Below, piece by piece: positions 7,725 through 61,800 of a stretch of 64,000 nucleotides of DNA. The notes beneath the pieces were generated by a model. It was given only the letters and a program-made list of their open reading frames with translations. It had not been told where the DNA came from and made no database searches. This DNA comes from Sphagnum magellanicum (taxonomy: Eukaryota; Streptophyta; Sphagnopsida; Sphagnales; Sphagnaceae): assembly GCA_021904315.1 (NCBI GenBank), contig CM038921.1, positions 12,182,146-12,246,145 of the forward strand. Direction: 5' to 3'. Made by a program: the position numbers and the translations under genes. Each line of letters opens with the position of its first letter. Position 1 is the first letter of the stretch.

Positions 7725-9061
7725 GGGATTTTACCTAACAATAAAATAGAAAATCAATTTTTTTATTCGATCATTTCGAATAACCATAAGAAGAATTATT
7801 ACATATGATTTGATAAACCTATTACTATGTGCCGATCCGACACTATTTGAAGTGAAAGAGATTCGGTTCAATATTTCTTTTTAGTGGCTTCCCAAAAAAT
7901 AGACAGTTGAATTAACGATTAAATTGAAATCAACGGGAAAAAAATGAAAAAAAAAAAATTGTTTGTACCATCCTAAAATTCCATAGATGCTGTCGCAGCA
8001 CCCATTTGATTTGGGGTTGGTTGGAGTGGCTCCATCATTTATTTATGAATATTTGGATACTAATTAAGTAATAGATTGATCCGAATCTGAAGAAGAGCGA
8101 GATGTAAATGGAAACTAAAAATAAATTTCCTCATTTTATTTGTCACTTCGTTCGAATACTAGCATAATAAAGGGGGGAGAAATAAGAATACTCGAAATTT
8201 TCAGTTTCTGTAGGAACTATATGGTATATAAAAACCAAATTCGATTTCATTGCAGTAGCCATCAATAAGGGATAAATTTTCTATTAATCAAACGCTTCGA
8301 TTGAACCTTTTTTTTTATCGATAAATTCGTAGAATTAAAAATTCATCTCAGCTAATTGAACTTTTTCGAATTGTTTCTTCTTAAGTACTAGAGAGATTTG
8401 TGCCAATATAACTGATGCAAAAAAGAGCAAAAGACCCTGAACACGTAAAGGATCTTGAAGTACTACTTCTGCATCTCCTTGACCAAAACCACCTACATTG
8501 GGATTATTGGTTAAAGGTTGATCTACTTTAATTGATTCACCCTCTGAAATAATAAGTTCTGGTCCTGGAGGTACAATATCAATCACTTGACGACCATCTG
8601 ATGCATTATCAATAGTTATTTCGTATCCACCTTTTTCTTTACGTATAATTTTATTGACTTTACCTGTAGCTGAAGCGTTGTAGACGGTATCATTACTCTT
8701 ACTCCCATCGGGATAAATTTGCCCTCTTCCTCTATTACCACCCACATATATTGGATATTTCAAGAAATGAGCTTCTTTATTAGCCGAAGGATCTGGCGAA
8801 AGGAGAGGAAAGACAATTTCACTATACTTTTTACCAGGAACCGGACCTACCACAAGAATATTTTTTTTATCAGGACTATAGGATTGAAAATAAAGATTAC
8901 CTATTCTTTCTTTTATTTCGGGAGGAATACGATCAGGAGGGGCTAATTGAAATCCCTCGGGTAAAATAAGAACCGCTCCTACATTTAAGGCTCCTTTTTT
9001 ACCATTAGCAAGAACTTGTTTTATTTGTGTATCATAAGGTATTTTAACGACAGCCTCAAAA
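7725..9061 (-). other. Nuclear plastid DNA insertion (NUPT) with petA and its downstream spacer
   Basis: The interval includes the 3' part of chloroplast petA on the minus strand plus about 600 bp of AT-rich sequence downstream of its stop, which looks like plastid intergenic spacer. The right junction is sharp: the petA match runs through the codons for [11 protein letters not shown] and stops at about 9,061, where unrelated nuclear-looking sequence begins. The left junction is not visible by eye and 7,725 is an estimate. Sequence on both sides is nuclear in character (LINE, invertase gene), so this is a transfer and not a plastid contig. Confidence 0.75.
8335..9061 (-). pseudogene. petA: Cytochrome f fragment (petA), 5'-truncated nuclear copy
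   Basis: Cytochrome f is the c-type cytochrome of the thylakoid cytochrome b6f complex, which passes electrons to plastocyanin. The minus strand reads without interruption through about 242 codons of its C-terminal part: [11 protein letters not shown] near 9,060, [79 protein letters not shown], then the single membrane helix and the end [15 protein letters not shown] followed by a stop. The N-terminal signal and the heme-binding CxxCH part are missing, so the fragment cannot make a working protein. The absence of stops or frameshifts suggests a fairly recent transfer. It lies alone in the nucleus with no sign of promoter or transit peptide. Confidence 0.95.
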
Positions 9062-10715
9062 ACCTGGTGGGTGCTGGTTCACTGTGGCCCCTCTCCTGAC
9101 CTTCTTCACTTGACTTGTAGTGTACATGTGTGCACACCAATGTTGATGTTGTACAAACTAATCCAACAAAAAGTCATCTCCTCTTTGTAACAGTCCATAC
9201 ACCTAACTTCATTTTTACCAATTTTTTTGACTACCCACTACCTAACTTCAGAAATATTATGGGCAAAGGATCTTTCTCTGAATCATGATCGCCAAAATAG
9301 TCTTCTTCACTGAAGACGAAAGCTCTCTCTCTCTATGTCAACAATTTGAAATTTGACATCAAATGAGACAATTTATTTCCAAACCCATTTTTGCCTTCAC
9401 AATTATGTGTTAATTAAGCAAACTTGTTGTGAACGACTCAAAATCTCAAGCTGAAAGTTTCTCAGCAAACTTCTTGTACACAACTCAGAATCAAGCTGAA
9501 AGTTTCTCAATAGTTTTATTCACACAGAGAAATGTAAAAGCCAACAAGATGTGATCCTCCTTTCTCCACAACATCCAGAACATGATTATTTTATTTTATT
9601 TTATTTTATTTTCTGCATCAGGATTCTGAGTATTCACAAGGTTGATGGATTGATTAATGAAATAAGTTATTTCTAACAGTCTTTTCATCCAACTGAAGAA
9701 TGAAGCTTTTTGCTAGCATCATGTCAGAAATCCAAACCATTATGGATGGGTCAGAGCAATCCATAAATGAAAATAGAAAAAGATGATAGTGGGTACAGCT
9801 TTTTTTTGTAAGGTGTAAAATTTCACAAAAATATGAAAAACTAAAATTAAAAAGGGAATATATTGTCACAATATTCCCATTTTCTGAAAAAACAATGTTG
9901 AAATTTCCAAAGGAAATCGAAATTTTTCCACCACGTTTGGAGTCCGAGTGGGGTTTTTCTTTTTTTGGGAATCTTCCTAACTTGGGAACATTTTTTTCAG
10001 AAAATGAAACAAAAAACACAAACACACACACACACACAAATTTTGTGATTTTGAGGGAGTTTTTTGGCCATTTTTTAGAAATAAAAATAATTAAATTAGC
10101 CATATCTAGACCTAGGCACTTCCCAGGTCACCACTTGTAGCAGCACTTTTGTAAAAATGCTACAGCCCACATACAAGACAATCGCCATTTAATGCTAATT
10201 AATGCTCGAGATCCTCGCCAATGAAATTTGAAAAAAAAGAAAACAAACCCTGGGACTCTGATGAAATTAGATAATTGTGTATTGAAATTGCCCCCAGAAA
10301 TTATCCTGTTTATAAAAACTAAACAATGGTTCAAGATAGTAACATATATTCCATGTGTATAATTAGATAGCAAAACAAATAGGAACCATGCCAACACAAT
10401 TAATAGGGTCCTCACAAAGTACAAAGAATAAATAAAGAGAATATCATGGGAGGTGTTGATATTTTGTGTCGTAGGTTTTTTGTTTAAATTTAATTTTGGG
10501 TTGAGAACTTTGAGACAGTAGGTAATAATAATGAATGCAGAGAGAGTATAAAAATTAAAAAAATCAATCACAAAAAAAAATCCCCTTTTGTTTTCCCAGT
10601 GAATTTTCACACTCCAGTAGATATAATTCCAAACTGCAGCATATGCATGTTGGACGTCACATGTCAGAAGTCTTTTGAGTTTTGCAAGGAAATTGTTTGT
10701 TGTTGTTGCGCCAGT
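9062..10715. other. Intergenic and upstream region of the invertase gene
   Basis: No gene is recognised. A pentanucleotide ATTTT-type run lies at about 9,585-9,613 and a short CA run at about 10,018-10,037. Open frames here, including a 160-codon one on the minus strand at 10,128-10,610, have the Phe/Ile/Lys-rich composition of chance frames in AT-rich DNA. Confidence 0.55.
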
Positions 10716-11134: not shown

Positions 11135-14100
11135 ATGGAGTGCGCGGCCGCAGCAGCAGCAGCAGCAGCTTCAGAGTGCAGGACAGCAGCTTCGCGTATG
11201 AAGAAAACGGGAAGCCTGGTGATGATGATGATGAAGGTGATGATTTGTGTGGTGCTCTTGGTACTAGTGCTACTAGTGCCTTGTAGCAATGGACAGTATT
11301 CACAGACAGTGTTGCTGGCACAAAGAACTGGATTCCACTTCCAACCTATCAAGAATTGGATGAATGGTAAGGAGCAGCACTCCCACCCCCGCCCCTCCCC
11401 TGAAAAGAAAAGAAAAGAAGCAGAGGTTTTGGGGAAACCAATCAATTTCAAGTCTACACGGTTTTGCCTGGGAAGATCAAATTTCCAGGATCGATATAAT
11501 TCTTGGTGTCAAGGATGAGTTTGTAGACTGGAATTTATTTTTTTGATTGCAATGTTGTTGTTTTTCAGCTCAAAGAAAGAAAGAAAGAAAGAAAGAAAGA
11601 ATCGGAGGAGCCCAGGAAGAATTTATTGGTGAATGTCATGAATTGTGACTTTGCTAGTAGTTTCCTCAATTCAAATCCTCAAGAAGGAAGTATGCCCAGT
11701 AGTGGATTCAATCTCTAAGAGAGTTTATGAATTCATCTCTGGAGAATCTGAGAATTGGGCACCCACAAAATCACTAGCTTAGAGAACGGTTGTGTCTGTC
11801 ACAAATTTTGCACAGACCTATTGTTGGCATGCCTTATTGCATGCAAGTCTGTTGTCTCCTTACTCAAGAATTCTCTGTTGCTCCTCTTGCTGATCTTTAG
11901 CTCCAAGGGATTTGTTGTCTGTCTGTCTTGGGTTGAGATCTGATGGATTTTGTCTGACATTGAAATTCGGTTTTGGTGGGGGGTGGTGACAAAATTGGGC
12001 CCTTTGGGTTGGTTTGGATCCACTGAAATTTTGCAACTTCCACAATGATCAGATCCAAATGGTTAGTTCCTGAATCCCACCCTCTCTTCTACATATATTT
12101 CGTTGCATCTTATTGTGACTGCAGCTTTTAGTTCTTGTGATCAATATACTCACACTACTTTGATTTTGCCATTTCTGCAACTGCTGCTGCATTCTTGAAT
12201 CTTTTTGGACATATTCTTTTTTTTGGTTTTTTCTTCCCGTTTTGCTTTGCTACTTGAATCCAGGCAGTCCTGGAACATTAATCCATTATATTAGATTCAG
12301 GATTTCAGTCCTTGTGTATGCCGCACAAAGTTTGAAACACTTTTGTTGAATCTCTTTGTTTAAATTTCTGTGAGAACCTGGACCTCCGGCAGACCTCAGA
12401 TCCTTGTTGCAAAGCAAAGAAATTGCTGCTGTTGTTTCTGTCTGCTTTGGACATTCTTATGCTTTTCAGGAGTTGATTCACTGAGGGTTGATTTTTCCGC
12501 TCTGACTTATGCAACATCTGCACCATAAAGAATATATATATATGTATGTATGTATATATGTCAGACCTGCAAAAACCAACACATATAGATCTTTGCTCTC
12601 TTTGTTACACAAACTCAACAGATCAAGCTTTGTGATGTGCGCACTGCAGGTAGGTAGGTGTGTGAGCCTGCAGGTCTTGTAACTTGTTGCCATGAGGTTT
12701 CAAGGACAGCTTTTTTTGTCTGTAAAATCTGCTTCTTGGAGGTTGTTATGGATTGGTAACATCTAAGACCTGTCTTACCTGGGAAAGCAAATTGGAGAAC
12801 TCTAATTGCTCCAAATTCTGACTCCAAATTCCATGTTTAAGTAGAACTTGTACAAGCCACAAAAAAAAAAGAAGCCTCATCATCGGTTTTTGCTGAATCA
12901 TAACAACCCCTTTGAAATCATCCCTTAGAACTGGTTTGAAATTTGTCTAGCATATACAGTAATACACACAGCTGGGTGCGAAACTAATATGTGAATTATT
13001 ACTGGGTTGTTGTTTTCTATGTGAATTCTTCTTGCTAGGGCCACTGTATTATAAGGGCTACTACCACCTGTTTTATCAGTATGATCCGTATGCGGCTGTG
13101 TGGGGAAATATAGTCTGGGGCCATGCGGTGTCCACAGACCTGATTCATTGGCGTTATTTGGAGGAAGCATTAGTGGGCAGTGAGTGGTATGACATATACG
13201 GGTGCTGGTCAGGATCTGCAACCCTTTTGGATGATGGCACACCTGTGATCTTGTACACAGGCTGGTCCAATGCTTCTGCGGTAATTCAATCACAGACACA
13301 AAATCTGGCATTTCCTGCTAATGCATCTGACCCTCTTCTCCTCAAGTGGGTTAAGGTATGCCCCTGGCGCCTGGCCCCCTTCCTCCTGCCATATCTGACT
13401 TTTGAGGCCTTATTATGACTGTGTTGTAAAATTGACATGGTTCTTGTTGCCTTGCACATATTGTGAAACTAGTGCTGATTATGCAGTCGTATTGAACTGT
13501 TCATTCTGCAGAGTTGAGAGATATTATTATAGGATTTGTTGCTAAGTCTTCCTTCTACTGAACATTCAATAAGGTCATTGTTTTTGTGTGTGTTTGAAGT
13601 CAGCCCATAATCCAATTGCAACAGCACCACCAGGTTACAACAGTAGCTTCTTCCGGGACCCAACAACCGGTTGGCAAGGGCCAGATGGTGAGTGGCGGAT
13701 TTTGGTGGGTGCCAACCTGGGTACTGGAGGCAATATTGGAACAGCTCTAGTTTACAAGAGCAAAGATTTTCAAACCTGGTCCTTTGAGCACCCATTGCAT
13801 GAGGTACCTGGAACAGGAATGTGGGAATGCCCTGACTTTTACCCTGTGGCCTTGTCGGGCAGCAAGCTGGGCTTGGACACATCCGTGCTGGGTGCATCAC
13901 AGAAGCATGTTCTCAAAATCAGTTCAAACAATCTGCGGCATGACTACTATTCAGTTGGGACGTATTATTTTAACAACCAGACTTATGAGCCTGATATCAA
14001 GCAATTAGACACAGCCATTGGACTCCGTTATGACTATGGAAATTACTATGCATCAAAATCCTTCTTTGACCAACACAAAGGGCGGCGCATTTTGTTTGGC

Positions 14101-15944
14101 TGGGTGGAAGAGTCTGATAGCGCACAGGAAGACATTGCCAAGGGTTGGTCATCTATTCAGGTGCTTGTCCTGGAATCGCTCTGCAAATTGTGTTTTTCAT
14201 TCTTTAGTCATATTGTTGCTTACTTGCTGTTGTTCTTTCTTTTTCTTTTTCTTAGTGCTGATAATAATGCACAGCAATGAATTCAATCAAGGAATTGGTG
14301 GGATTGCTGGATCTGGATTTGGCAAATTTTGTGTTTTGAACTAATTGGGTGTGTATATGGGGAGCCAGGCAATCCCAAGGCAAATATGGTTGGACAGTGT
14401 GACCCCTACAGCTCTACTACAGTTACCAATAGAGGAGGTTAAGAACCTTCGAAGCACTAAATATGAACAGACGAATGTTACATTGAGTCCTGGCTCAGTT
14501 TTTCCTGCACAGGGAGTTCAAGGCGTGCAGGTATTGTGATTGCATTTGCTGTAATTTTGGACATTGCAACTTCAAGGCCAATTGCCTTGTATGTTGTGTT
14601 CAGGTTTTGAATGCAAACTAAACTGTTCTAGTGGAGAGAATTCATCCTTTACCAAAAGAATTTGAATGTGCAGGAGAGCGGGAATTCCATGTGGGAAGAA
14701 GAACCAGAATCTCACCATGAACTAACTGCCTTTTGTTTGCTGGCAGCTTGACATAGAATTGACATTTTCCCTGCCAAATGTGCCACAAAACTCCACAACG
14801 GAGGAATTTTTGGGGGAAGAGGGCCCAGTTGAATGTAGTAAAATTGGGGCAGGAACAAAGGGCGCAAAATATGGACCATTTGGTATCCTTGTCTTGGCAA
14901 CAGAGGATTTACAAGAGCAAACAGCTTTCTTCTTCTACTTTTCCTATTCTCAAAAATCTGGCTGGTTGACACTGCTGTGCAACGACCGAAGCAAGTACTG
15001 AAATTTTTTCTAAACCTTTCTTCTTCATATCTTTCATTCTTTAATTTTCAGTCAGTTGCAGTTTGTAACACAATCATGGAGAAGTTTCCAGAATTTGCCC
15101 CATTTTGAAACGCAAAAACCTCAGAGTCTGCTAGCCATGTAATCAGCACTACCTGTTCTGGAAATGAAGCCCAAGAAACTTGTGCCACAAGTTCTTTGAT
15201 GAACTATCATTGTATGTCACTTGATAACAAGAGAATAAGTTTTTAGGCTTTGGCAGTGCATTGAGGATTGCAAGAAAAGGAGCTGACATGATGGATTCTG
15301 AAATTTGTGCTTAGGTCATCGGTAGCATCAAATCTAGACAAGTCATCATATGGGACATACTTGCGTGTGTATCCAAATGACAAGTCTCTTGTTTTACGTA
15401 TCTTGGTGAGTGATTTTCTCTCTCTGGGTTTGTGAAATTCCTTGGTTGATTCATGGTTGACAGCATTTTTATTCTATCTATTGCAAATCATATTTGTTTT
15501 CAGGCATAATTTTATGCAAGTTTTGCACATTTGTGTTTTTGGGTCATATTTTTTTGCTAGTCTTGCACATGATCTGCAGTAAGAAGTTTGTAGTCTTGAT
15601 GAATAGAAGGCTTGATTTTGTAAAATTCAATTGGGATCTTTCCACCCAAATGTCATGACCACAATATCGATACTGTATATGCTTGGAGTATATATAATCA
15701 TTGTCCCAAAAAAAGGAGGAAACTTTGTTGAAGAAAAGGCAATTCGTTCTTGTTGCAGGTGGACCATTCTGTGGTGGAAACTTTTGGACAGTGGGGTAGG
15801 ATTGCCATCACTTCACGGGTGTATCCACAATATGCAATTGGAAATTCGGCTAAAGTGTTCCTGTTCAACAATGGCACTGAAGACGTGAAGGCTCAAAGCC
15901 TGAAGATCTGGAACGTGAACACAGTAAAACTAACCAATTTCTAA
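11135..15944 (+). CDS. GH32 beta-fructofuranosidase, cell-wall invertase type, 8 exons
   Basis: The family hydrolyses sucrose (invertase) or fructans in the apoplast. My splice model: 11,135-11,366; 12,053-12,061; 13,039-13,355; 13,600-14,160; 14,369-14,530; 14,747-14,994; 15,315-15,405; 15,759-15,944. All introns are GT..AG and the frame closes to 601 aa. The N-terminus has a poly-Ala run (GCA/CAG repeat) and then a hydrophobic signal segment ending near PCSNG. An in-frame ATG at 11,198 would give a more standard signal peptide. Active-site motifs are NDPNG at 77-81 (nucleophile Asp78), RDP at 205-207 and WECPDF at 261-266 (acid/base Glu262). Pro in WECPDF is the cell-wall form; vacuolar enzymes have Val. 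The C-terminal beta-sandwich ends with [11 protein letters not shown] and [11 protein letters not shown]. Residues 296-299 read NNLR where sucrose-cleaving cell-wall enzymes have an Asp...Lys/Arg pair, so it could instead be a fructan exohydrolase or a non-catalytic homologue. Confidence 0.95.
11572..11600. repeat. GAAA microsatellite in invertase intron 1
   Basis: About seven AAAG/GAAA units in the first intron, about 205 bp after the donor site. Confidence 0.85.
12053..12061 (+). other. 9-nt mini-exon (exon 2) of the invertase gene
   Basis: The sequence ag|ATCCAAATG|gttagt gives a 9-base exon. It joins exon 1 ending ...AATG (11,366) to exon 3 starting GGCCACTG (13,039) and makes exactly the codons for N-D-P-N-G-P. 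Plant beta-fructosidase genes are known for this mini-exon, among the smallest described in plants. Without it the catalytic Asp78 and the NDPNG motif are lost, although the frame is kept because the exon is a multiple of three. Confidence 0.93.
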
Positions 15945-24767: not shown

Positions 24768-27700
24768 ATGTCGGGTGTCATGAGGTCGTTGCAACAGCAA
24801 GCAGAAATGGGTGAATTGGAATTTGTACATGAGGGTGAAGATCGAGGTTTTCTGAGAAGCAGTGTTGGAGTTGTTGCAGCTGGTCATGGTTTGATGAGGA
24901 CGAGGAGGAGATGTCTGAATGGGTCTGGTGTAATTCTTTGCGGGCTTCAGTGTGATGATGGGAGACAGGTACTGCTGCTTTTGTTTTCTTTGCTAAATTT
25001 GGCGCTGATGATGATGATGCATGGAGCTGGTGCCCAACAAGCCTACAACGATGTCAATGGCTACACTTGTAGTAGTACTGCGCTGCAATCCCAGACTTGC
25101 ACTTCCTATACTTTGTACAGGACACAGAGCAGCGAAGAAAACCTCACGAGTGTTAGCACTCTTTTCAACACAAGTGCAAGCGTAATTACCACCACTAGTA
25201 GCTTGAAGGTCACCTCCAACGACACTTCTTTGCCTTCCGGGACACCTCTTTACATTCCTCTTGCTTGCAACTGTGTGCACAGAAGAAGCTACCAAGGAAA
25301 TGAGAGTAGAACCACCTATGAAGCAACCGTCTCTTGGCATATCGTCAGAGGCAATACCTTCTGGATCATTGCAAATGCTACCTATGCAGGCTTGACTACT
25401 TATCAAGCCATAGAAGCTGCCAATCCCACTCAAGTACCCACTGATCTCCACATTCATAGCTACAGTACCATTCCCTTGCGGTGCGCATGCCCTTCAGCCA
25501 CACAGCTTGGAATTGCCAGATTCCTCCTTTCTTTTGTTCTCTTCCCGGCCGAGACAAGCCTGGCAGTTGTGAGTTCCTATTTCAATATCTCCATCGCCGA
25601 CTTGGAAGCAGCAAACCAAGTGAATGCCAGTACAACCCTACAACCCTTTTCCACTTTGCTTGTCCCTCTCCTCAAACTCCCTCCTCTGTCTTCAATTCCC
25701 TTTGTTCACGCACCTTCTTCAGTCCCAGGCTCTGCATCTCCTAAGTCAGCCGGTGGGTTTCCTAGTTCTCCTTCACCTTCATCTGCAAGTTCATCAAACA
25801 AGAACTTGTATATTGGGGTTGGCATAGGCATTGGATTAGGGTTTTTCCTGGCATCAATGTTGGGGATTTGTCTGTTGCTTGTCTGCTCGAGGAAGAAGAA
25901 GAAGATGAAGAAGACGGATCCTGGATATGTTGCAAAGTACAATTTGGGATTTGAAACCGTCAAGAACATCAGTGCTACAAAAGATAGTGGTGGTGATGGT
26001 GACAGCACAGAGTACAATGCTTTGCTGGCTGAGAAGGTGTCAGATGTGGTGGGATCTGACAAGCCCATGGTCTTCTCATACAAAGAACTTCAAGAGGCAA
26101 CTATGGATTTCAGTGATGCCAAGAGGATTCGAGGGTCTGTGTTCTTGGGCAAGTTGCGAGGGATGTTGGTTGCAATTAAGCAGATGAAGGGTAACAATAT
26201 GACACAGGAGCTCAAGATTCTTACAAAAGTCCACCACAGCAATCTGGTACACAACAATCCTGCACTTTCTTCCAGGCTCATCTTCTTCACATTTGTAAAT
26301 TGCATCTCTCCTGTTGGCTCATCTTCTTCAAGATGTGCTTTCTGCTGTCCTTTCAACTCACAATTCTTAGACTCTCCTTGTTTCTCAATTTGGATTTGGA
26401 CATTTTGGGTACTGATTTTCTTTCCAACAAGACCTCGCTATTCTTCTCTTGGTGTTTCTCACTCTGGATTTGAACATTTTGGATACTGATTTTCTTTCCA
26501 AAAGGTCTAAATTCTTCTCCTGGTGTTATTCACTTTGGATTTAAACATTTTGGGGTACCAATTTACTTTCACAGAAGATGATGCTTATCCATTAGATTAC
26601 ATGCCAACAGAGCTAGGGATAAAAGAGCTGGGGATGATCACATAATTCTCTGTTTTGGAATCATCACTTCTACACTGAGTAAAGTGAGGACCCATGCACA
26701 AGATCCTTTGAAGGCTGACAGCATGTGAAGGACTTTTTGCCATAATAAAAACCAACCTGTTTAGTAAGGATTTCCTGCAACGTGATCGTAAGAAACATAT
26801 TTCTTTCCACATTATTTGTTCCAGCCTGATCAACAACTTTCTGGATTTTGGCTGTGCTTAGAAGCTTCATCTGTTTCAGAGTGGTAAAATTGTTTGTGAA
26901 TCTGTGCTTTGGGATATTGAAGCTATAAGACTGAGATTTTTTTCTCCTCTAATGTCAAGGTGAATGGACATGGTTTGCTCTGTAGGTAAGGCTGGTTGGG
27001 ATGTGCGTAAGCAGTTCAGAGCATCTGTACTTGGTATTTGAGTATGCAGAGAATGGATCTCTCAGCGATTGCTTGCACAATTATAAAGAGACAGAGTTGA
27101 CAGCAAACTTTTCCCAAAGTGTTGCATTCTTGCCCTGGATGAGGAGAATCCAAATAGCGTTGGATGTTGCATCTGGCCTTGACTATATCCACAATTACAC
27201 TAATCCAAGCTTTGTTCATAAAGATGTGAAAAGCAGCAACATACTGCTCGATAGACAGTTTCGAGCAAAAGTAGCAAACTTTGGGATGGCAAAGTCTGCA
27301 AATGGCTCAGAAGGAGGAGGAGCTGGGGCAATGATGCTAACCAAGCACATTGTGGGGACACATGGTTATACAGCCCCTGAGTATCTGAAGCATGGGCTGG
27401 TTACACCCAAAGCTGATGTGTTCGCATTTGGTGTGGTCCTGTTGGAGATTCTCTCAGGCCAGGAGGCAATAGTGAGGCCAGCAGAAAGTGATGATGGAAA
27501 AGTGAAAGAAAGGGCACTTTCATCTCTCATTGGGGACATTCTAGAAGGTGACAATTATAAGGAGAAGCTTCAAGCTTGGATTGACCCATTGTTACTAAAT
27601 TTGTACCCACTTGATACTGCCTCCAATGTCGCAAACTTGGCAAAGACATGTGTGGATTCAGATATGTCATTACGGCCCAACATGAAAGAGATCACTTATG

Positions 27701-27798
27701 CACTCTCCAAAATGTTGGCATCATCCTTGGAATGGGAGTCTTCTGCAAGATTGGGAAGTAGAGGAGACATGCATAGCTTTTCAATTGAGGGTAGGTGA
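24768..27798 (+). CDS. LysM receptor-like pseudokinase, LYR (LYK4/LYK5/NFP) type, copy 1
   Basis: Plasma-membrane receptor family for chitin and lipochitooligosaccharides; LYR-type members usually signal through an active LYK/CERK1 partner. Exons 24,768-26,246 and 26,986-27,798 join as HSNL|VRLVGMC with GT..AG borders, giving 763 aa. Later in-frame ATGs at 24,807 (750 aa) and 24,894 (721 aa) are likelier starts, because the signal segment lies at residues 68-88 of the long form. The ectodomain begins QQAYNDVNGYTC and has the Cys pattern typical of three LysMs, with CNC and CAC spacers. Then come a short Ser/Pro linker, a membrane helix (about 346-370), a KKKKMKK stop-transfer run, and a kinase fold from about 434. 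The P-loop reads RGSVFLG without the usual first glycines. VAIK and a catalytic-loop Asp (HKDVKSSN) remain, but DFG is NFG. It is probably a signalling-inactive kinase. Confidence 0.93.
26384..26580. repeat. Tandem repeat of about 72 bp inside the intron of LysM gene copy 1
   Basis: Units begin at about 26,384, 26,458 and 26,529. Each has a TGGATTTGAACATTTTGG-like core followed by a CTGATTTTCTTTCC-like segment; the third is partial and more diverged. The intron of copy 2 (32,641-33,062) lacks it and is shorter. Confidence 0.75.
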
Positions 27799-28267: not shown

Positions 28268-28840
28268 AATTTAGCATGTTAAAAGAAGGTTGAAAGTGTT
28301 GGATATCATCATTTCCAAAGTCAATTTTACATCTTTATATATTTGTGCATGTTTCTAAGATATTATGATTATATTTCCTAACATGTGATAAGTTTTGGCA
28401 AGGGATGTTCAACTCCATATTCCTGAAAGTGGCATCGTTTGACAACTTCAAGTCAAACAATTTAGCATGTTAAAAGAAGGTTGAAAGTGTTGGATATCAT
28501 CATTTCCAAAGTCAATTTTACATCTTTATATATTTGTGCATGTTTCTAAGATATTATGATTATATTTCCTAACATGTGATAAGTTTTGGCAAGGGATGTT
28601 CAACTCCATATTCCTGAAAGTGGCATCGTTTGACAACTTCAAGTCAAACAATTTAGCATGTTAAAAGAAGGTTGAAAGTGTTGGATATCATCATTTCCAA
28701 AGTCAATTTTACATCTTTATATATTTGTGCATGTTTCTAAGATATTATGATTATATTTCCTAACATGTGATAAGTTTTGGCAAGGGATGTTCAACTCCAT
28801 ATTCCTGAAAGTGGCATCGTTTGACAACTTCAAGTCAAAC
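28268..28840. repeat. Three identical 191-bp tandem repeats
   Basis: Units start at 28,268, 28,459 and 28,650. Each runs from AATTTAGCATG to CTTCAAGTCAAAC, and I found no difference between them. The array totals 573 bp and lies between the two LysM receptor genes. It has no coding potential of its own. Confidence 0.97.
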
Positions 28841-30078: not shown

Positions 30079-30274
30079 GCATGATTTTTATTGGAGATTC
30101 TTGCCTTGAACGTTAAAGAGCGGGCCAGGTAAGGCCGATTCCGGCTTCTAACAAGTCCAAAGGAGCCTTGATTCTGGCATGATTTTATTGGAGATTCTTG
30201 CCTTGAACGTTAAACAGCGGGCCAGGTAAGGCCGATTCCGGCTTCTAACAAGTCCAAAGGAGCCTTGACTCTGG
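30079..30274. repeat. 98-bp tandem duplication
   Basis: Two head-to-tail units start at 30,079 and 30,177 and differ at only a few positions. Each contains the GC-rich palindromic core GCCGATTCCGGC. It lies about 600 bp upstream of LysM gene copy 2. Confidence 0.92.
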
Positions 30275-30879
30275 CTCTTATCGTGCCCATCACTAATGGA
30301 GTCATCAGTCTTTGTCGACGGTCTTACCGATTTTTCCAAAAAAAGAAGGATTTCCTTTTTGACTCTCCCTCAAACAACCCCAGGGAATAACCGGTATCCG
30401 AATCCATGTAATTTATTTTGCGCGAATTGTTCAGTCGTTGCCGATGAGAGTGTGAATTTATTTCCACACGCTTGTGTACATTCGCATTTGCCACTCGCAA
30501 GATCTTCTTGTTCCATGGCTTGCTTCCGCGATGTTTCGGTTGGAACACAAAAGTCTTCGCCATTTAAACGCCGGCACTTAATCACAGGGACTGCTGCTGC
30601 ATTTGAGGCCAATTTGGAGAAGAATCGGTATGTGGGGGTATTTTTGTTGCGGGGGGGAGTTTTGCTTACAAATGCATCCACACCTTGACATGAGCTTGAT
30701 GGTGTTTTCGTCATGTACTTACTTAGTTGGGATTGTGAAAGTAGTTTTACACTTTGGAGAAGTCTGGGAGATGTGGTTGTGTTTTTAAGGAGCTCAAGAA
30801 GAGGACGAGTACTGGCTAATTGGATTAAGCAAGGATTGTCTGAGATCATTGAAGAAACTTAGGTGAAAAGCGACCGTTT
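30275..30879. other. Upstream region of LysM gene copy 2
   Basis: Less AT-rich than the surroundings. A 159-codon minus-strand frame at 30,370-30,849 shows no recognisable domain and is probably not a gene. Confidence 0.4.
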
Positions 30880-30918: not shown

Positions 30919-33872
30919 ATGGATTTCGGACAAGGGGGCAATCGGCATTTGTTGAGAAGAGGAGAAGATGCTTTTTGTGAATCGAGGAGTTTGCTCCATG
31001 GCTACAACGATAGTAGCTGTAGTATTCGTTGTGGGCTTTGTTTTCATGGGATGCAGGCCTTGTTTTGGATTTTGTTGGTCCTCTCCGTAATGTATGTCTT
31101 GATGCAAGGAGGTAGTAGTACCCAACAAGCGTACAACGATGCCAGTGGCTACACCTGCCCAGCAAACAACAGCAGCAGCAGCTCGTGTAGCGCAACCATC
31201 TTGTACAGGACGCAGACCCTGAACGAAAAGTTGACGAATGTGGGTACTCTCTTCAACGCAACTGTGAAAGCAATTGCAAATTTGAGTAATATAAAACAGT
31301 TCTCAGGTTCTTTGGCCTTTGCAACACCTCTTTATATCCCAATTACTTGCAGGTGCCTGAACGGAACATACCAAGCACCTGTTTCTAGGTTGATAACCAA
31401 CGGTGATACATTCTTTACCATTGCGAATGAATATGAGGGTTTGACCACAGTTCAAGCCATACAAGCTGCAAATCCCAATCAAGTGTCTACTAATCTCATG
31501 ATTGGTACCAACATTACAATACCATTGCAATGCACATGCCCAGCAGCTTCAGCAACACAGCAACAAACAGATCATGAAATTACTAACTTCTTCCTCACTT
31601 TTGTAGTTTTCCCAGGCGAGACTCTAGATGTTATAAGTTCCTATTCTAATGCCTACATCCCAGATTTAGAAGCAGCAAACAAAGTTAATGCTCACACAAC
31701 CCTTGAAACCTATACTACTTTCCTTGTTCCTCTTGCCAACCTCCCTCCTCTATCTTCAATCAATTTCAAAACACCCCGCCGTCTTCTAAGCAATAAAACA
31801 CAAACCCCATCTCCTGCTCCTACTCATCCTGCCCCTTCTCCTACTCATGATGCACCACCTCCTCATTCTCCTGCTCCTACTCATCCTGCCCCTTCTCCTA
31901 CTCCTGTTGCACCACCTGTTCATTCTCCTGCTCCTACTCATCCCACCCCTTCTCCTTCTCCTGTTGCACCATCTGTTCGTTCTCCTGCTCCTACTCATCC
32001 TGCCCCTTCTCCTACTCCTGTTGCACCATCTGTTCATTCTCCTGCTCCTACTCATCCCACCTCTTCTCCTACTCCTGTTGCACCAACTGTTCATTCTCCT
32101 GCTCCTACTCATCCCATCCCTTCTCCTACTCCTGTTGCTGCACCAGGAGTTCCACCAGGGAACGAATCCTCACCTGCTCCTCCTCTTGCCAGGAGTGCAT
32201 CCTCGAACAGAAAATTATACATTGGGCTTGGTATAGGCATAAGTACTGGTTTGGTGGCGTTATCTCTATTAGCAATTTTTCTGGTACTGGCCTGTAAAAA
32301 GAAGTGGGATCCTAAAAATGGACGTGGAGTTCCTGAGTTGGAAGCAGAGATTGGTGTGATGATGACAAATGATAGGGGTGACACCATGGTGTCATCAGAT
32401 GGCTTCCAAAAAGATGCTATGTTGACAAGGATGTCAGACATGGTGGGATCTGACAAGCCCCTGGTTTTCTCATATGAAGAACTTCAGGAGGCAACCATGA
32501 ATTTCAGTGATGGCAAGAGGATTCAAGGGTCTGTGTTCTGGGGCAAGGTGCAAGGAAAGTTGGTTGGAATCAAGCAGATGAAGGGGAACATGACAGAGTC
32601 TGATCTCAAGATTCTAACACAAGTCCACCATGCCAATCTGGTAACAATCTCAATTGCATGCTCTAAACTTCATGTCTTCAAGTTGTATCGTAAGCTGTCC
32701 ACTAAAACCAACCTTGCTTAGAAGGACTCCTGAAGATAAATTTTGAAGGAAAAGATTTCCTCCCACACTTATTTCCGGTGATCGACGCTGGTGGGGACCT
32801 CATGTGGGGCCGGTAATGTGTTCATGTGCCTTTCGGAGGTTTCCAGTGTCCCACGCTCAATGTGCCATGTCTACGGACACCATGTATTATCACAAGTTTT
32901 CTACAATTCTTCAAGCTTCTCGTGTGTTTAGAAGCTTCATTTGTTTTACAGTGTTAGAATCATTGCAGATATGTACTTCACAGCCTTCATACATTTCAAG
33001 ACAGTGTTGTTTTTTCAATGTCTAAACATCAAGGTCATCTTTGTGTGGAAATGCTTTTGTAGGTGAAGCTGGTCAGGATTTGCCAAAAGAACACAGAGTA
33101 TCTGTACTTAGTATATGAATATGCAGAGAATGGATCTCTCAGTGATTGCCTGCACAATAAGAATGTCAACCCAAGAACAAACTTTCTGCAAAGTGGTGCA
33201 ATATTTCTGCCCTGGACAACAAGAATTCACATAGCCTTGGATGTTGCATCCAGCCTTGACTATATCCACAATTACACTAATCCAAGCTTTGTGCATCGAG
33301 ATGTGAAAAGCAGCAACATATTGTTAGATGGAAACTTTCGAGCAAAACTAACAACCTTCAGGATGGCAAAGTCTACAAATGGCTCAAGAACTAGACCGAC
33401 ACTAACCAAGGATATTGTGGGGACACAGGGTTACATGGCTCCTGAGTATCTTGAGCATGGTTTGGTTACACCCAAAGCTGATGTCTTTGCATTTGGTGTA
33501 GTTCTGTTGGAGATTCTGTCAGGCAAGGAGGCAATGATGAGGCTAGTGGAAGGTGTTGAAAATGGAGCAGGGAAACCAAGGGAAGCAAGGCCACTCTCAT
33601 CTCAAATTGATGAGGTCCTTGAAGGTGAGAATTTTAAGGAGAAGCTTCAAGCTTGGATGGACCCACTCTTGCAAAACGCTTACCCACTAGACACAGCCTG
33701 TAGTGTGGCAAACTTGGCAAGGAAATGCTTAGTTGCTGATCCAGAACTACGACCCAATATGAAAGACATAAATTATGCACTCTCCAAAATATTGGTGTCA
33801 TGCTTAGAATGGGAGTCTTCTGTACTATATGGAACTAGAGATAGGACTGATGTTTCAGTTGTGGCTAGGTGA
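30919..33872 (+). CDS. LysM receptor-like pseudokinase with AGP/extensin-like spacer, LYR type, copy 2
   Basis: Tandem paralogue of the gene at 24.8 kb with the same intron position. Exons 30,919-32,640 and 33,063-33,872 (HANL|VKLVRIC) give 843 aa. From the likelier ATG at 31,051 the protein is 799 aa and starts with the signal peptide MQALFWILLVLSVMYVL. The ectodomain begins QQAYNDASGYTC with TCRC and QCTC Cys pairs (three LysMs). Residues 297-410 of the long form are six 19-residue units of the type SPAPTHPAPSPTPVAPSVH, rich in the SP, AP and TP pairs that are hydroxylated and glycosylated in arabinogalactan proteins. A membrane helix follows (about 432-458), then a kinase fold from about 515. 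The P-loop is QGSVFWG, VAIK is VGIK, HRD is kept, and DFG is replaced by TFR. It is almost certainly catalytically dead. Confidence 0.93.
31807..32148 (+). repeat. 57-bp coding minisatellite, six units
   Basis: Unit starts at 31,807, 31,864, 31,921, 31,978, 32,035 and 32,092. The period is exactly 57 bp (19 codons), so length changes keep the frame. The first unit is the most diverged. The array encodes the Pro-rich spacer of LysM gene copy 2. The long opposite-strand frames over it (Arg/Ser-rich and Leu-rich) are by-products of the repeat. Confidence 0.97.
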
Positions 33873-45185: not shown

Positions 45186-48100
45186 TGGTATTAGAGCATG
45201 GTATAGGCTAAGGGCTGAGCAGCAAGCACAAAAAGCAAAGGAGGCGATACGACAGCAAGAGGCCATCATCTCTTCCCCCTTCGTGTTCGCCACTACACAT
45301 GTGTCGGAGCTCTTCGGGAGGCACCGGCAAACGACATCGGATCAAGGAGTTGTCTTCGCCAAGATGAAGCTATAGGGATTGCATACAATCTTTTGGACGG
45401 AATTTTGGGGCTGAAACTGCGTTTCTGCATCATCTCGACCTCTGTTTTGAATCAGCAGGCGTTCGTGTGCTATTCGGACAAGATGTCAGATGGCATCAAT
45501 CAAATTGTTAATGAGAAGCTTGACAAGAACAACTTCCATGCTTAGAAGTTCAGGATGACCAATTTCCTTATGGGAAAAGGATTTTGGGACTATGTGGAAG
45601 GTGAGAATGAAGACCCTCCAGAGTTGCCCGAGGAAAATGCCACTACAGTAGAGATAAAGGCATTCAAGGATTGGAACCAAGGTGCACGCAAGGTCATGTA
45701 TTGGTTGTCTGTCAGTGTTACAAACACAATGATTGGGCACATACAGGATGCTCACACTCTAGTAGAAGCATGGCAAAACTTGGTGCAAATGTTCCAAACA
45801 AATACAAAAGCAAGGAAGCTGCAACTAAAGTAAGAGCTGCACACTGTGGAGAAGAAGAACATGTCTATCAATGAGTATTCATTGAAGATCAATGGTCTTG
45901 TTGAATCCCTTGCATCTATTAATGTATCTATGGATGATGATGATTTGGTCAACGTTTGTCTAAATGGACTTGGAAAGGAATACAAACCTTTCAAGACATC
46001 CATAATTGTCAGGGAGAATGTTCCCAAATTTCGAGATCTTGTTTCAATGCTAATTGTAGAAGAGAACTTTAAATGAAGATTGTTCTACATAAAACAAGAA
46101 CAATGTAGAGCAGTAGGCCTTCTACTCAAATACAAGTAGAGGCAGAGGAAGAGGTCATGGTCAAGGCCAAGGTGGTGGCCATTTTGGAAATCAGAATTTT
46201 GGATAGCAATAGTCAAATGACTCACAACAACAACAATCATACAGAGGTGGTGGAAGAGGCCAGTCTCAAGGCAAGGGGGGCCAAAGAGGACGTGGTAATT
46301 GGAACAGACAACAATCTGGATCAGATTCTAGAGACTGTCATTATTGTGGCAAACCAGGCCATTGGGCCAAAGAATGTAGAAAGAAGGAAAGTGACATGAG
46401 GAATGGAAGACTGCAGCAGAATAATTATGCATCCTCAAGCAAGCAAGCTGAAGATAGGTATGAACATCTATTTGTTGTGCAGCACATGCTAAATACAATG
46501 GCTGCAAATGTATGCACAAATGTTGATAATGTATGGTATGTGGATTCGGGAGCCTCTAACCACATGACCTATCATGGTGAGTGGTTTAGGGATGTCAAAA
46601 ATCTGGAAAAACCAGGTTATGTAAAGACGGGAGATGACACAGCCCATCCCATTGCTCATATCGGGAATGTGCCATTAGTTATGCACTTTTAATGTACTTC
46701 ATGTGCCCAATATCACAAAGAACTTGGTTTCTGTTGGGCAAATGATTGAGCAGGGTTTGCAAATTCGGTTCAACCCTGATGGCTGTTATGTCAAAGACTT
46801 CAAGGACAAATGTCATTTAGTTGCTAAGGGCAAAAGAGTGGGCAGAATGTTTACCTTAGATGTAAGCATGCCTAAGGTGGAAGCTGCTATGTTTGCACAA
46901 GGTGTAGGAGTTGTGGCTGATATGGACATATGGCATAAGCGTATTGGTCATGTAAATGAGCAGCAATTGAAGTCTATGCAGAGTTTAGAAATTTTCACAA
47001 GTTTGCCAAAGTTTAAGGTGGATGGAATGCATAAGATATGTGAAGCATGTCAATTTGGGAAACAAACAAAGAATGTGTTTCCACATGACAAGAATGTAAG
47101 TAAGAGAGCACTTGATGTAGTGCATTCAGATGTATGGGGGCCAACCAATACGGCGTCAATGGGAGGATGTCGCTACTATGTATCATCCATTGATGACCAC
47201 ACAAGGAAAGTGTGGGTGTACTTCATGAAGGAAAAAAGTGAAGTGTTTACTCACTTTTAGAATTTCAGAATGTTAGCTGAAAAGCAAACAAGGTTGCAAG
47301 TTAAGTGCCTAAGGTTAGATGGAGGGGGAGAATATTTCTCCAATGAATTTACTACATATATGAAAATGCATGGAATTCAGAGGCAATTTACATGCAGGTA
47401 TACTCCGTAGCAAAATGGAGTTGCTGAGAGAAAGAACAGGCACATTGCAGAGGTTGGTCGTGCATTAATGGCTGACAAGAACATGCCACATCATTATTGG
47501 GCTGAAGCAATTGCGACTGCAGTTTACATCATGAACAGGACCCCCACAGCAACAATGCATGGTATGACTCTAGAGAAGAAGTACAGTGGCAGAAAACCAG
47601 ATTTGTCACACTTGAAAGTGTTTGGGTGCATTGCATATGTACATGTACCAAATGAGCTACGAACTAAGCTAGATCCGAAGGCTGAAAAATGTGTTTTCAT
47701 TGGGTACTCACTTGAGCAGAAAGGGTACAAATGTTATAACCCTGTCACACGTAAAATGAGGGTGAGCAGGCATGTTGTGTTTGATGAAATGAACAGCTGG
47801 TATGATGATGTGAAAGACACTATTGGGGCTGATGCAGATGAGCATGTGGTTGCAAAGAATGCAAGTCAACAATCATAAACATTGAATGGACCACGAGAGT
47901 CCCCTTCTAGTGGGTCTACTAATAAACCATGGAGTGGTAGGCTGTGTCATAATAGCAGTCCTACAAATACAAGTGATGCATCATATAAAGGAAAAGAGAA
48001 GGTTGGTAAGGCCCTTGGTATGCCTGACATTTCTGCAGGATATTCACATGTAGATGGAGAGTTTAGTGGCTCTAAGTAGAGCCTTGATGAGGAGTTTTGG

Positions 48101-49818
48101 ATTCTAGCTATAAGGACACCTAGTGTGAAAAGAACTAATGTAGCAAATAAGACACCACGGACAGATCCAGGTCCACGCATGTCTACCAGGGAAAGACGAC
48201 TAGTCCAGAGATTGATATATGATGGTTATGTAGCTCGCCATTATGCATATATGGCAAAGGTTGTGCAAGATGTTGAACCCATTTGTTTTGAGGATGCCAT
48301 TGGGCATGCACTTTGGGATAAAGCCATGGATGAGGAGATGGCTACATTGGATGCAAACAAGACATGGGAGTTGGTGCCTTTGCCTGAAGGGAAAAAGGCT
48401 ATTGGATGTAAGTGGGTGTACAAAGTGAAGCACAACTCGGATGGAAGCATAAGCAGGTATGAGGCTAGATTAGTAGCCAAAGGATATGCCCAGACACATG
48501 GCATTGATTATGAAGAGACATTTGCTCCTGTTGCAAAGATGGCAACAATGAGAGCTGTGATTGCAGTGGCTGCATCAAGAGGTTGGCTATTACATCGAAT
48601 GGATGTAAAAAATGCCTTCTTGCATGGTGAGTTGCAAGAAGAGGTGTATTTGGACCAGCCACCTAGATATGAGGATATGAGTCATCCAAATTATGTGTGT
48701 AGGCTGCATAAAGCCTTGTATGGACTGAAACAGGCACCGAGAGCATGGCATGACAAAATTGCAGAGTATCTTGTCACCATTGGCTTTCGTATGTCAAATG
48801 TAGATCATTCACTTTATGTGCGTAAAAGTGATGAGGGCATTGTGGTCATCACTATCTATGTGGATGATTTGATTGTTGGGGGTGACAATGAGAAGGAAGT
48901 TGAGCATGTAAAACATCTCCTTAAGCAGAAGTTTGACATGAAGGATCTGGGTGAGCTCAAATTCTTCCTAGGCATTGAGGTCATCAGGACGCCTGAGGGT
49001 ATATGGTTGTTACAGCGACAATATGCATTGGACATGTTGTCCAAATATGGTATGGTTGGTTGTAAGCCCATTTCTGTACAACTGAATCAGAATGGCAAGC
49101 TGAGTGTAAATGCAAGTGAGGTTTTAGAGGATGCCACTATGTACAGGAAGATAGTGGGCAGTCTTATTTACATGACGATCACCAAGGCGGACTTAAACTA
49201 CACAGTTGGGTTGGAGAGCCAGTTTATGCAGGTTCCTTGGAAGCCACATTTGGATGGTGTGAGGCACACACTACGCTATGTGAGTGCCACAGCAGATTAT
49301 GGTCTCTTTTATGAAACTAGCACGAAATTGCAGGTGCATGGATACATAGATGCTGATTGGGCTGGTAGCATCTCAGACAGGATATCTACTAGCGATTTTA
49401 TGTTCTCTTTTGGGAGTGCTACTGTTACTTGGAGTAGCAAGAAGCAACCGACAGTTGCCTTGTCGAACACAAAGGCAGAGTACAGGGGTGCTACGATGGC
49501 AGCATGTGAGGTAGCTTAGCTCCGCAAGCTACTTGGAGATTTGGGGCTGCATGTGGATAGACAGGTTGTCATATATTGTGATAACCTTAGCAGTATTCAG
49601 CTGGCTAGGAACCCAGTGTTTCATGCATGGACGAAACACATTGAGGTTCATTATCACTTCATTAGGGAGAAGGTCTTGGCAAGTGAAATTGATTTTATTT
49701 ATGTCAGCACAGAGGATCAAGTTGCTGACATCTTCACCAAGGTCTTTGGAACTGAAAAGCATCGCCGATTCTGTAGCATGCTTGGAGTGATGGAGTTGGA
49801 GTTGAGCTTGAGGGGGAA

Positions 49819-58800: not shown

Positions 58801-61800
58801 AGCTTCAAGGAGCAATTAGCGTTATCTAACAACCTGAAGGCAAGTTCGAGGTGGGGAGAGATTTTCCAAAAGATTCGAGTTGATCAGAATCTGGATGAGG
58901 AGAAGGGACAGCAACTCTGGGGAGTCTTAGAGCGATATCAGGATGTGTTTGCTTGGAACAAAGGAGAGCTAGGCTATTGTACTGTCGGAGAACACTCCAT
59001 AGACACACAAGGATTTCCACCTTGCAAGGTAGCTCCTGGTCGATTATCATACTAAGAGGAGGCAGAGGTGAAGAGACAAATTGATGTGTTGGTGGAGTTG
59101 GGTAAGATGAAGCCGAGTGATTTTGAGTATGCCTGTCGTGTGACCCTCCCAGTGAAGAAGGACGCGAGTAGGTGATTCTGTGGAGACTACCGACCACTCA
59201 ATTTACAGACCCGGCGAGATTCGTTCCCCATGCCTCTTGTTGATGATGTGATTTCCCAGCTGGGGAAATCAGCTTGGTTTACTGCACTGGATTTGCAGTC
59301 AGGATTCTGGCAAATTCGTATGGTTCCTGAAGATATGAAGAAGACAACATTGGTTACCAAGACTGGGTTGTATGACTGGACAGTTATGCATTTTGGTCTC
59401 AAGAATGCAACCAATACATTCACCATAACAATGTCGTTAGTTTTCAAGGAATTGGGAGATAAGTTCCTGAAGGTGTTTGTGGATGATCTCAATGTCCACA
59501 GCGAAAATTAGGAAGACCATCTGCAACACTTGGAAGCTGTACTTTCCAAGCTCAAGGAAGTGAACTTGAAGCTGAACCCAGGCAAATGTTGTTTCGCTGT
59601 TGAAAGCATCGTGTTCCTAAGCTATGTGGTCAGTAAGGAAGGTACTAAGCCAGATCCTAAAAAAATTGACGCAGTGTTATGTTTTCCAGAACCAATGACG
59701 GTCACCAGTGTCAGGTCTTTCTTGGGACTGACAGGGTACTACCGAAAATATTTACGAGGTTATTCAAGGTTGGCTAGTCCGTTGTTTGAATTGACGAAGA
59801 AAGACGTTGCATTTGTATGGAATCAGGACTGCCAGCATGCATTTGATTCTTTGAAGAGAGCACTTGTTGATGCTCCCATATTGGTGCGTCCAGACTTCAA
59901 GAGGCCATTTTGCCTCAATGTGGATTGGTCAACAAAAGGTGTTGGTGCCATCCTGTCACAAAAGGAGGGTAGATTCGAAAAAGTGGTGGCTTATGCCAAC
60001 AAGGGCTTGACTGTGGTGCAAAGGAAGTTTCACCCCATGGAAGGGGAGTGTTATGCATTAATCTGGGGCATCATGCATTTTAGACAGTATTTGCACAGAA
60101 ACCATTTCACTCTGAGAACGGACCACAAGCCGCTTGAATGGTTGGTGACGGTGTCAGATGCACATGGCAGGAGAGGCAGATGGATCGATATGCTGCAGGA
60201 TTTCAGTTTCAAGATATTGCATCGACTAGGCTTGAGGCATACGAATGCAGATGCTTTGAGCAGAAATCCAGTAGGGTAGGCCACGGATGATGATGACTTC
60301 AGTGAAGAGATCCAAGACATTGGAAGTCCACTGACTGACACATTTAAAAGAGAAGGGGAAACTCTTTTTGTTCAGACTAGCGAGGAAACAGAATGGCTCG
60401 GCGTCAGGGGAAAGGACAGGGGGTGTGTATAACATAATGTGTACTGTGACCATGTTAGCAACCAGCAACTGTATATGGTTGACGTTGTATCAGAAGAAGA
60501 CCGGGTCAAGGAGCTTGAGCCATATGAGGTAGAAATTGCAAGGGAGAGTGAGCTTGTGCAGGACAAAGATGTGAGAGTGGTGCTGAAGAGGAGGAGACCC
60601 CAGTGCTATGATAGACAATAGTAATTAGAGCTAGTGTTGGCCGCTCAATAGCTGTTTGAGTCTGGTGAATGTGACTTGGTTGTTGCAGGTTCGGATGAGG
60701 AGGATGAGTGGGGAGCAAGCACAACGCACCAAGACATATGGGAGGATGTGACCTGCATGGATTTACTGCAAGGAGGCACTCTACCAGACACTATTGATCC
60801 TGTGGAGTCTAAGAGAGCAAAGAAGCGGACATTGAACTACCATTGGTAGGATCAATCATTCTATTTCAAGGGCTTACTTGTACCAAGACCAGAAGACCGC
60901 ATGGGACTAGTAGTCCGAATGCACAAAGACCTAGGACATTCTGGAGAAGAAAGGATTCTGGCTGAAATATGTAGGAGGTATTTTTGGCATAATCGGACTG
61001 AGGATGTGAAGACTGTGGTAAAGATATGCCAACAATGTCAGATGGTGAGAAGAGTGGGGAGTATATGCTCTGAAGATGAGGAGTTGAAAAGCATACCCAT
61101 TTGTGATCTATTTCATAGAGTGGCTATGGACACTCCAGGACCATTGCCTGAAACCAAGTCAGGAAACAAGTACATACTAGTGGCAATCGACCACTATTCT
61201 AAATGGTGCGAAGCAAAGGCAGTTGTTGATCATGGTGCGAAGACTGCGGCCAAGTTTCTAGAAGATGACATAATCTGCAGGTATGGAGTCCCCAAGTTCG
61301 TACTCACTGACAATGGTGGGGAATGGGCTGCAAAATTCGATGTTATGTGCAAGGATTACGACATCCAGCATCAGCACACTGCACCCCAATGGCTTCAGTG
61401 TAATGGGATGGCGAAACACTTGGTCAAGACTATCAAGCACGACATTACCGTTCTTGCTACAACACCAAGAAACATAGACTGTTGGGACGAGCATCTGGCT
61501 AAGGTATTGTTTGGGTACAGATGTGGGATATAGGCGAGCACCAAGTTTTCACCTTTCATGATTATGATAGGTCAAACACCACGTCTCAGGGTAGACAATT
61601 ACTTGCATGCTCTAACTGCTATGACTGATGATGATGTTGATGTTGAAGTTACTGCAGCACAGTTTCTACAGAAGGTGAAGCTTATAGCAAGCATCCACGA
61701 GAATGTTTTGCTCAATGTGGAACAGGCACAAAAGAAACAAAAGAAGACCTATGATGGCAGAAAAGGTAAGCAGACTTTTGAAGGTCTGGTTGCAGGTGAA

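Follow-up and report, generated by a model that had tools for sequence, protein, structure and literature searches.

Two LysM receptor genes, copy 1 and copy 2, lie in the window, the 64,000-nucleotide stretch C15:12182146-12246145 of the Sphagnum magellanicum genome (438,994,042 bases in 31 contigs were searched). Their features are collected in Table 1. Judged by Pfam matches, alignment and gene structure, copy 2 is an LYR-type LysM receptor gene whose in-frame repeat separates the third LysM from the membrane helix, in agreement with an earlier sequence-only reading. Like other LYR-type receptor kinases, a group in which we place NFP/NFR5, LYS11, LYK4/5 and MpaLYR, presumably all members, it has a predicted LysM1-2-3 ectodomain, one helix and a kinase-like domain without a DFG motif. 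Unlike the other three LYRs found in the genome, where 29-40 residues separate the LysM core from the helix, copy 2 has a 148-residue spacer that contains a tandem array.

Table 1. Coordinates of the two LYR genes and their parts, as window positions
Feature	Position	Strand	Evidence or remark
Copy 1, neighbouring LYR paralogue	24807..27798	+	exons 24807-26246 and 26986-27798
Copy 1 linker, 33 aa	25698..25796	+	picked out by the AG-motif rule, 3 dipeptides
Copy 2 exon 1: N-terminal extension, signal-type hydrophobic stretch, LysM1-3, spacer, helix, kinase-like start	30919..32640	+	open frame, donor
LysM ectodomain core (QQAYND...LPPLSSI) of copy 2	31123..31761	+	Pfam, PDB sequence matches
Whole extracellular linker of copy 2, 148 aa	31762..32205	+	
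RRLL just N-terminal of the array	31777..31788	+	alignment; not at this place in the other three LYRs
57-bp tandem array, 19-aa Pro-rich unit	31810..32138	+	TRF, in-frame translation, genome pattern count
Transmembrane helix, residues 441-459	32239..32295	+	hydropathy peak 2.54; modelled helix, block pLDDT 57-78
Copy 2 intron, 422 nt, GT-AG	32641..33062	+	position common to the other three LYRs
Copy 2 exon 2: remainder of kinase-like domain	33063..33872	+	Pkinase 4.3e-30 (Pfam); HRD present, TFR for DFG

The Pfam matches of copy 2 to LysM1_NFP_LYK (7e-13) and LysM2_CERK1_LYK3_4_5 (3e-15) were both over the cut-off, and that to LysM3_LYK4_5 was weak (0.0016) and under it. The LysM3 region aligned with the paralogues up to LPPLSSI, and copy 2 has CRC and CTC, CxC pairs that are predicted to form disulfides. 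The best PDB sequence matches were a "LysM type receptor kinase" (1.2e-21) and NFP (2.6e-20), with CERK1 far weaker (1.7e-6). In copy 2, hydropathy rose above 1.9 in two places, around residue 44 and around residue 441, which points to a signal-type N-terminus and a single helix. A structure prediction of the ectodomain, spacer and helix, made from a two-row alignment of window sequences, had a mean pLDDT of 38.2 and was unusable except for the helix.

The donor of exon 1 (AATCTG/GTAACA) is at an identical position in the other three LYR genes, and the exon-intron structure is common to all four that were found. The kinase-like domain lacks DFG in each of them; at this place copy 2 has TFR and the others have NFG, and copy 2 is further from the canonical motifs (TFR, LVGIK) than its three paralogues (NFG, LVAIK). 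Between copy 2 and copy 1, dN and dS were 0.177 and 0.53 for the kinase and 0.349 and 0.91 for the ectodomain. Since dN was smaller than dS in every domain comparison made, the copy 2 gene looks maintained.

With the ectodomain as query, the genome gave 14 matches at E<=1, of which nine were strong (E<=3.2e-51) and the other five weak (5.7e-10 to 0.6). Four of the nine strong matches were LYRs, namely copies 1 and 2 on C15 and one gene each on C10 and C4. Kinase dS among these four was 0.53-0.74 (0.53-0.70 between copy 2 and its paralogues), near the duplication peaks of 0.406 and 0.643 given in the Sphagnum genome paper (PMC9946827), where a different estimator was used. The same paper assigns chromosomes 4, 10, 11 and 15 to one ancestral chromosome; if contig numbers are chromosome numbers, C4, C10 and C15 are three of those four. 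A recent origin of copies 1 and 2 as a pair was not supported, as copy 1 grouped with the C10 gene in a four-row tree (97/98). In a nine-row tree, copy 2 and the C4 gene were on long branches and their placements were weakly supported.

The remaining five strong matches carry a lectin-receptor-type kinase. These LysM/LecRLK frames (L049:2034-4130 at C6:20.180, L052:2144-4000 at C15:12.876, and also L048, L050 and L051) combine an LYR-type ectodomain, 50-51% identical to that of copy 2, with a kinase in which HRD and DFG are present. The kinase is 63-65% identical to several C17 kinases, and the one C17 kinase checked, L067, is an L-type lectin RLK. In two of the five loci a single frame runs from LysM through the kinase. 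One of these frames has 699 aa; the other, of 619 aa, lacks the customary N-terminal extension and stops early in the tail. In the remaining three loci the frame of the ectodomain stops short of the helix. In novelty, this LysM/LecRLK-kinase chimera may surpass the stalk of copy 2 described below.

Several other features were seen in the window. Just downstream of copy 1 (28268-28840), a 191-bp unit occurs 3.0 times with 100% identity; upstream of copy 2 (30079-30275), a 97-bp unit occurs 2.0 times with 97%. A 247-aa cytochrome f (petA) frame on the minus strand (8338-9078) matches both Pfam halves and suggests plastid DNA in the nuclear genome. Retrotransposon-polyprotein-like frames with zinc knuckle, integrase and reverse transcriptase, copia-like and gypsy-like by eye, are located at 46213-49519 and 59512-61533. 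A glycosyl hydrolase family 32 exon (13573-14280) had 32 genome matches, some with internal stops, and none of the 32 was on C4 or C10, the contigs of the other LYRs.

The array in copy 2 was found by TRF with a period of 57, 5.8 copies, 93% matches, 0% indels and a score of 539. It sits in exon 1, in frame with a 622-codon open reading frame, and in the LysM frame its units translate as SPAPTHPAPSPTHDAPPPH / SPAPTHPAPSPTPVAPPVH / .... Six 19-residue units had been proposed; the 57-bp period, the frame and the absence of indels were borne out, and the number came to five complete units and a sixth that agrees for about 14 of 19 codons and then diverges. Identity at lag 57 across 31807-32148 was 0.905, whereas 20,000 codon shuffles of this stretch averaged 0.541 and reached at most 0.618. 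The open frame through the array is little proof by itself, because the stretch is 79.5% pyrimidine and the two remaining forward frames are likewise open across it (148 aa).

The 19-residue unit, rich in SP, AP and TP, is encoded nowhere else in this genome. The unit pattern, with at most three mismatches, occurred six times in the genome, each time inside the array of copy 2, and the backwards control pattern had no occurrence. When the spacer was used as a protein query, it was its own sole genome match at E<=0.001 (11 candidates, all 11 scored). No Pfam family matched the array at E<=1. An exact 25-base repeat pattern had no match in genome_contigs and viral_contigs, collections of prokaryote genomes and viral contigs that are uninformative on other mosses.

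The pyrimidine content also raises the possibility of an RNA-level function. The tract could in principle act as a 3' splice signal because it is pyrimidine-rich and free of AG from 31807 to 32145, where CACCAG/GAG follows, so that some transcripts would skip the repeat; a GT at 31781 joined to the AG at 32145-32146 would, counted by hand, excise 366 nt and keep the frame. However, no GTRAG donor was found between 31501 and 32300, and 31781 reads GTCTT, whereas the introns of the four LYRs all begin with GTA (GTAAC, GTACA, GTACA and GTAAG). From these signals, splicing out of the repeat appears unlikely, and a role of the tract as a splice signal very improbable.

Tyrosine cross-link motifs are a feature of extensins, and under the Hyp-contiguity hypothesis isolated prolines predict arabinogalactan chains, not extensin arabinosides. 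Of the 43 prolines in the array, 38 are isolated and only 5 touch another proline, and its 114 residues include 33 [ASTV]P pairs, which upholds the description of the spacer as arabinogalactan-like. The second term applied to it, extensin-like, is not supported: neither SPP nor Tyr occurs in the 148-aa linker, which thus lacks the SP(3-5) blocks of extensins. The isolated prolines and the lack of SPP and Tyr thus mark the spacer as arabinogalactan-like and not extensin-like. They also make it scarcely credible that the spacer is an extensin-type covalent anchor in the wall network, a role suggested by the position of the Pro-rich repeats next to the membrane helix, as in PERKs. The Hyp-contiguity hypothesis is cited in a study of formin ectodomains (PMC9232206).

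A published rule for bryophyte chimeric arabinogalactan proteins asks for at least three [STAGV]P dipeptides, no more than 6 residues apart, beside a known domain (PMC12209756). As given there, the rule picked out all four LYRs, with three dipeptides in copy 1, 37 in a single run in copy 2, three in the C10 gene and four in the C4 gene. None of the five LysM/LecRLK loci was picked out; the frames L037 and L040 cover linker, helix and kinase, and the other three stop short of the helix. By itself, a run of three dipeptides is only mild evidence, because 4 of 88 stop-to-stop frames of at least 100 aa in the window come under the rule, two of them copies 1 and 2.

From the LysM core to the helix there are 33 residues in copy 1, 148 in copy 2, 40 in the C10 gene and 29 in the C4 gene. 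Copy 1 does have only a short Ser/Pro linker at this place, as the sequence-only reading stated. The contrast between the two copies is more in length than in kind; both come under the arabinogalactan-motif rule. The statement that almost nothing separates the third LysM of LysM receptors from the helix was too strong, as the four LYRs found in this genome have Ser/Pro/Ala linkers of 29-148 aa that all come under that rule and juxtamembrane O-glycosylation motifs have been reported in several RLK families (PMC7511660). A short arabinogalactan-like juxtamembrane linker is a trait of the four LYRs found. This linker type is ordinary for them, and what is new is its tandem expansion, which is peculiar to copy 2. 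The L-type lectin RLK L067:601-2736 also has a short SPSVSPSVSPSG stretch ahead of its helix, so Ser/Pro linkers are not limited to LysM receptors here.

The origin of the unit could not be traced to the linkers of the paralogues, because local DNA alignment was no better than with codon shuffles; of 2000 shuffles, 1334 scored at least as high as observed for copy 1, 987 for the C10 gene and 436 for the C4 gene. As the unit is untraceable at the DNA level, only position and motif type tie the array to the family linker.

Units 1-5 differ pairwise at 1-9 of 57 bases, on average 4.8. Copy 2 has diverged far more than this from its paralogues, which makes the array either young or recently homogenised. 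Against the consensus of units 1-5 there was 1 synonymous and 10 non-synonymous changes, where 31% synonymous would be expected (P=0.10, with a two-base codon counted twice). Some of the changes eliminate dipeptides. Purifying selection on the unit sequence was not found in this comparison, and with a ratio of 1 to 10 and dipeptides sometimes lost there was no sign of selection on unit or motif.

These observations bear on a neutral explanation in which slippage or unequal crossing-over extended a disordered linker that accepts frame-keeping inserts, so that the extra 108-119 residues would be nearly inconsequential and the unit number would drift between individuals. Such a tolerated minisatellite is the main rival of the reading given below and a serious candidate, though a tentative one. 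It is in keeping with the low divergence of the units relative to the kinase dS, the excess of non-synonymous changes, the 191-bp and 97-bp arrays nearby and the lack of an array in the other three LYRs, and it stays alive because nothing shows selection on the unit sequence. The period that is a multiple of three, the absence of indels and the glycomotifs throughout argue the other way, although one genome cannot show selection.

The best reading, which we hold at about even confidence, is that a glycosylated stalk lifts the LysM head and slows the copy 2 receptor. According to this proposal, the short Ser/Pro/Ala juxtamembrane linker of the family would have been lengthened by tandem duplication of the 57-bp unit in an LYR-type receptor with a putative chitooligosaccharide-type head, a single helix and a kinase-like domain without DFG. 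If the gene is expressed, the isolated prolines of the spacer would most likely be hydroxylated in the secretory pathway and would then most likely bear arabinogalactan chains, making the spacer a disordered stalk that could extend for up to tens of nanometres. An extended polyproline-like chain measures about 0.31 nm per residue; as an upper bound and not a measurement, 148 residues would reach at most about 46 nm, compared with 9-12 nm for the linkers of the paralogues. The stalk would project the LysM head into the wall and slow the receptor laterally, and in this state the receptor may sample wall-borne chitin fragments.

The proposal of a slowed, wall-held receptor is drawn from the behaviour of formins and PERKs. 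The AtFH3 formin ectodomain, which has arabinogalactan chains, was reported to be nearly immobile with a mobile fraction of 12%, and those of two ectodomains with extensin-like motifs were 46.5% and 60.9% (PMC9232206). The PERK RHS10 associates with the wall, and the authors regard its Pro-rich ectodomain as the most probable means (PMC4783376). The sole LYR of Marchantia paleacea, MpaLYR, binds chitooligosaccharides, and a complex with MpaLYKa was reported (PMC12184373). By analogy, the copy 2 receptor would signal via a CERK1-like LYK partner, candidates for which, with LysM frames and HRD-containing kinase pieces, are present at C10:4.93 and C3:16.9. Several considerations weigh against a stalk: the unit changes give no sign of selection for the motif, a recent minisatellite in a permissive linker would give the same picture, and copy 2 shows kinase drift (TFR, LVGIK) and a LysM3 match below the cut-off.

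The tetrapeptide RRLL at the LysM-proximal end of the spacer, which we take to resemble a subtilase (S1P-type) cleavage site, suggests that stalk and motif together might decide where or whether the ectodomain is shed. RRLL is not at this place in the other three LYRs, shedding of the CERK1 ectodomain has been reported (PMC5705137), and in animals and yeast O-glycans have been linked with resistance to proteolysis (PMC7511660). With only four letters the motif is weak, however, and control of processing is quite improbable as the explanation of the spacer. An extension of the stalk reading, itself unlikely, is that a fast-mutating array sets the reach into the wall: unit number would vary among Sphagnum individuals within populations, and with it stalk length, the place of the receptor in the wall, its mobility, its encounters with partners and perhaps its shedding at RRLL, as a tunable trait.

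PERKs are not known to have a LysM head, class I formins are actin organisers not known to have a sugar-binding domain, and SERK and Strubbelig RLKs carry LRR heads. Each of these groups resembles copy 2 in part. PERKs such as RHS10/PERK13 share a Pro-rich extracellular stretch, a helix and a kinase, and AGP motifs are reported in their ectodomains (PMC4783376); their motifs are of the extensin type, whereas copy 2 is predicted to have a carbohydrate-binding-type head on an arabinogalactan-like stalk and a degenerate kinase. The class I formins AtFH3 and AtFH5 are membrane proteins in which an O-glycosylated Pro-rich ectodomain limits mobility (PMC9232206). Chimeric arabinogalactan proteins with kinase domains, which like copy 2 join arabinogalactan glycomodules and a kinase in one protein, number 454 in 46 species in the text of the source and 449, with 46/47, in its table (PMC5266747). 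The term "lysm" has a count of 0 in the available text of that source, so LysM is unnamed there among the chimeric kinase proteins. For the SERK and Strubbelig RLKs, in contrast to copy 2, the accessible part of PMC7511660 describes no long tandem array. Because kinases with arabinogalactan glycomodules (PMC5266747) and juxtamembrane motifs in RLKs (PMC7511660) had already been described, the spacer is less surprising than was first held. Among the matches listed from open-licence papers, in the portions available, no LysM receptor with a spacer of this kind is described, which is weak evidence of absence, and in the available text of a LysM-RLK review (PMC6207691) the words "proline" and "linker" both have a count of 0.

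If the spacer is made and glycosylated, copy 2 would be a natural experiment on the distance between head and membrane that can be tolerated and is compatible with signalling, and the neighbouring paralogue, with a stalk of normal length, would be its control. If the number of repeats varies, there would be a natural graded series of stalk lengths.
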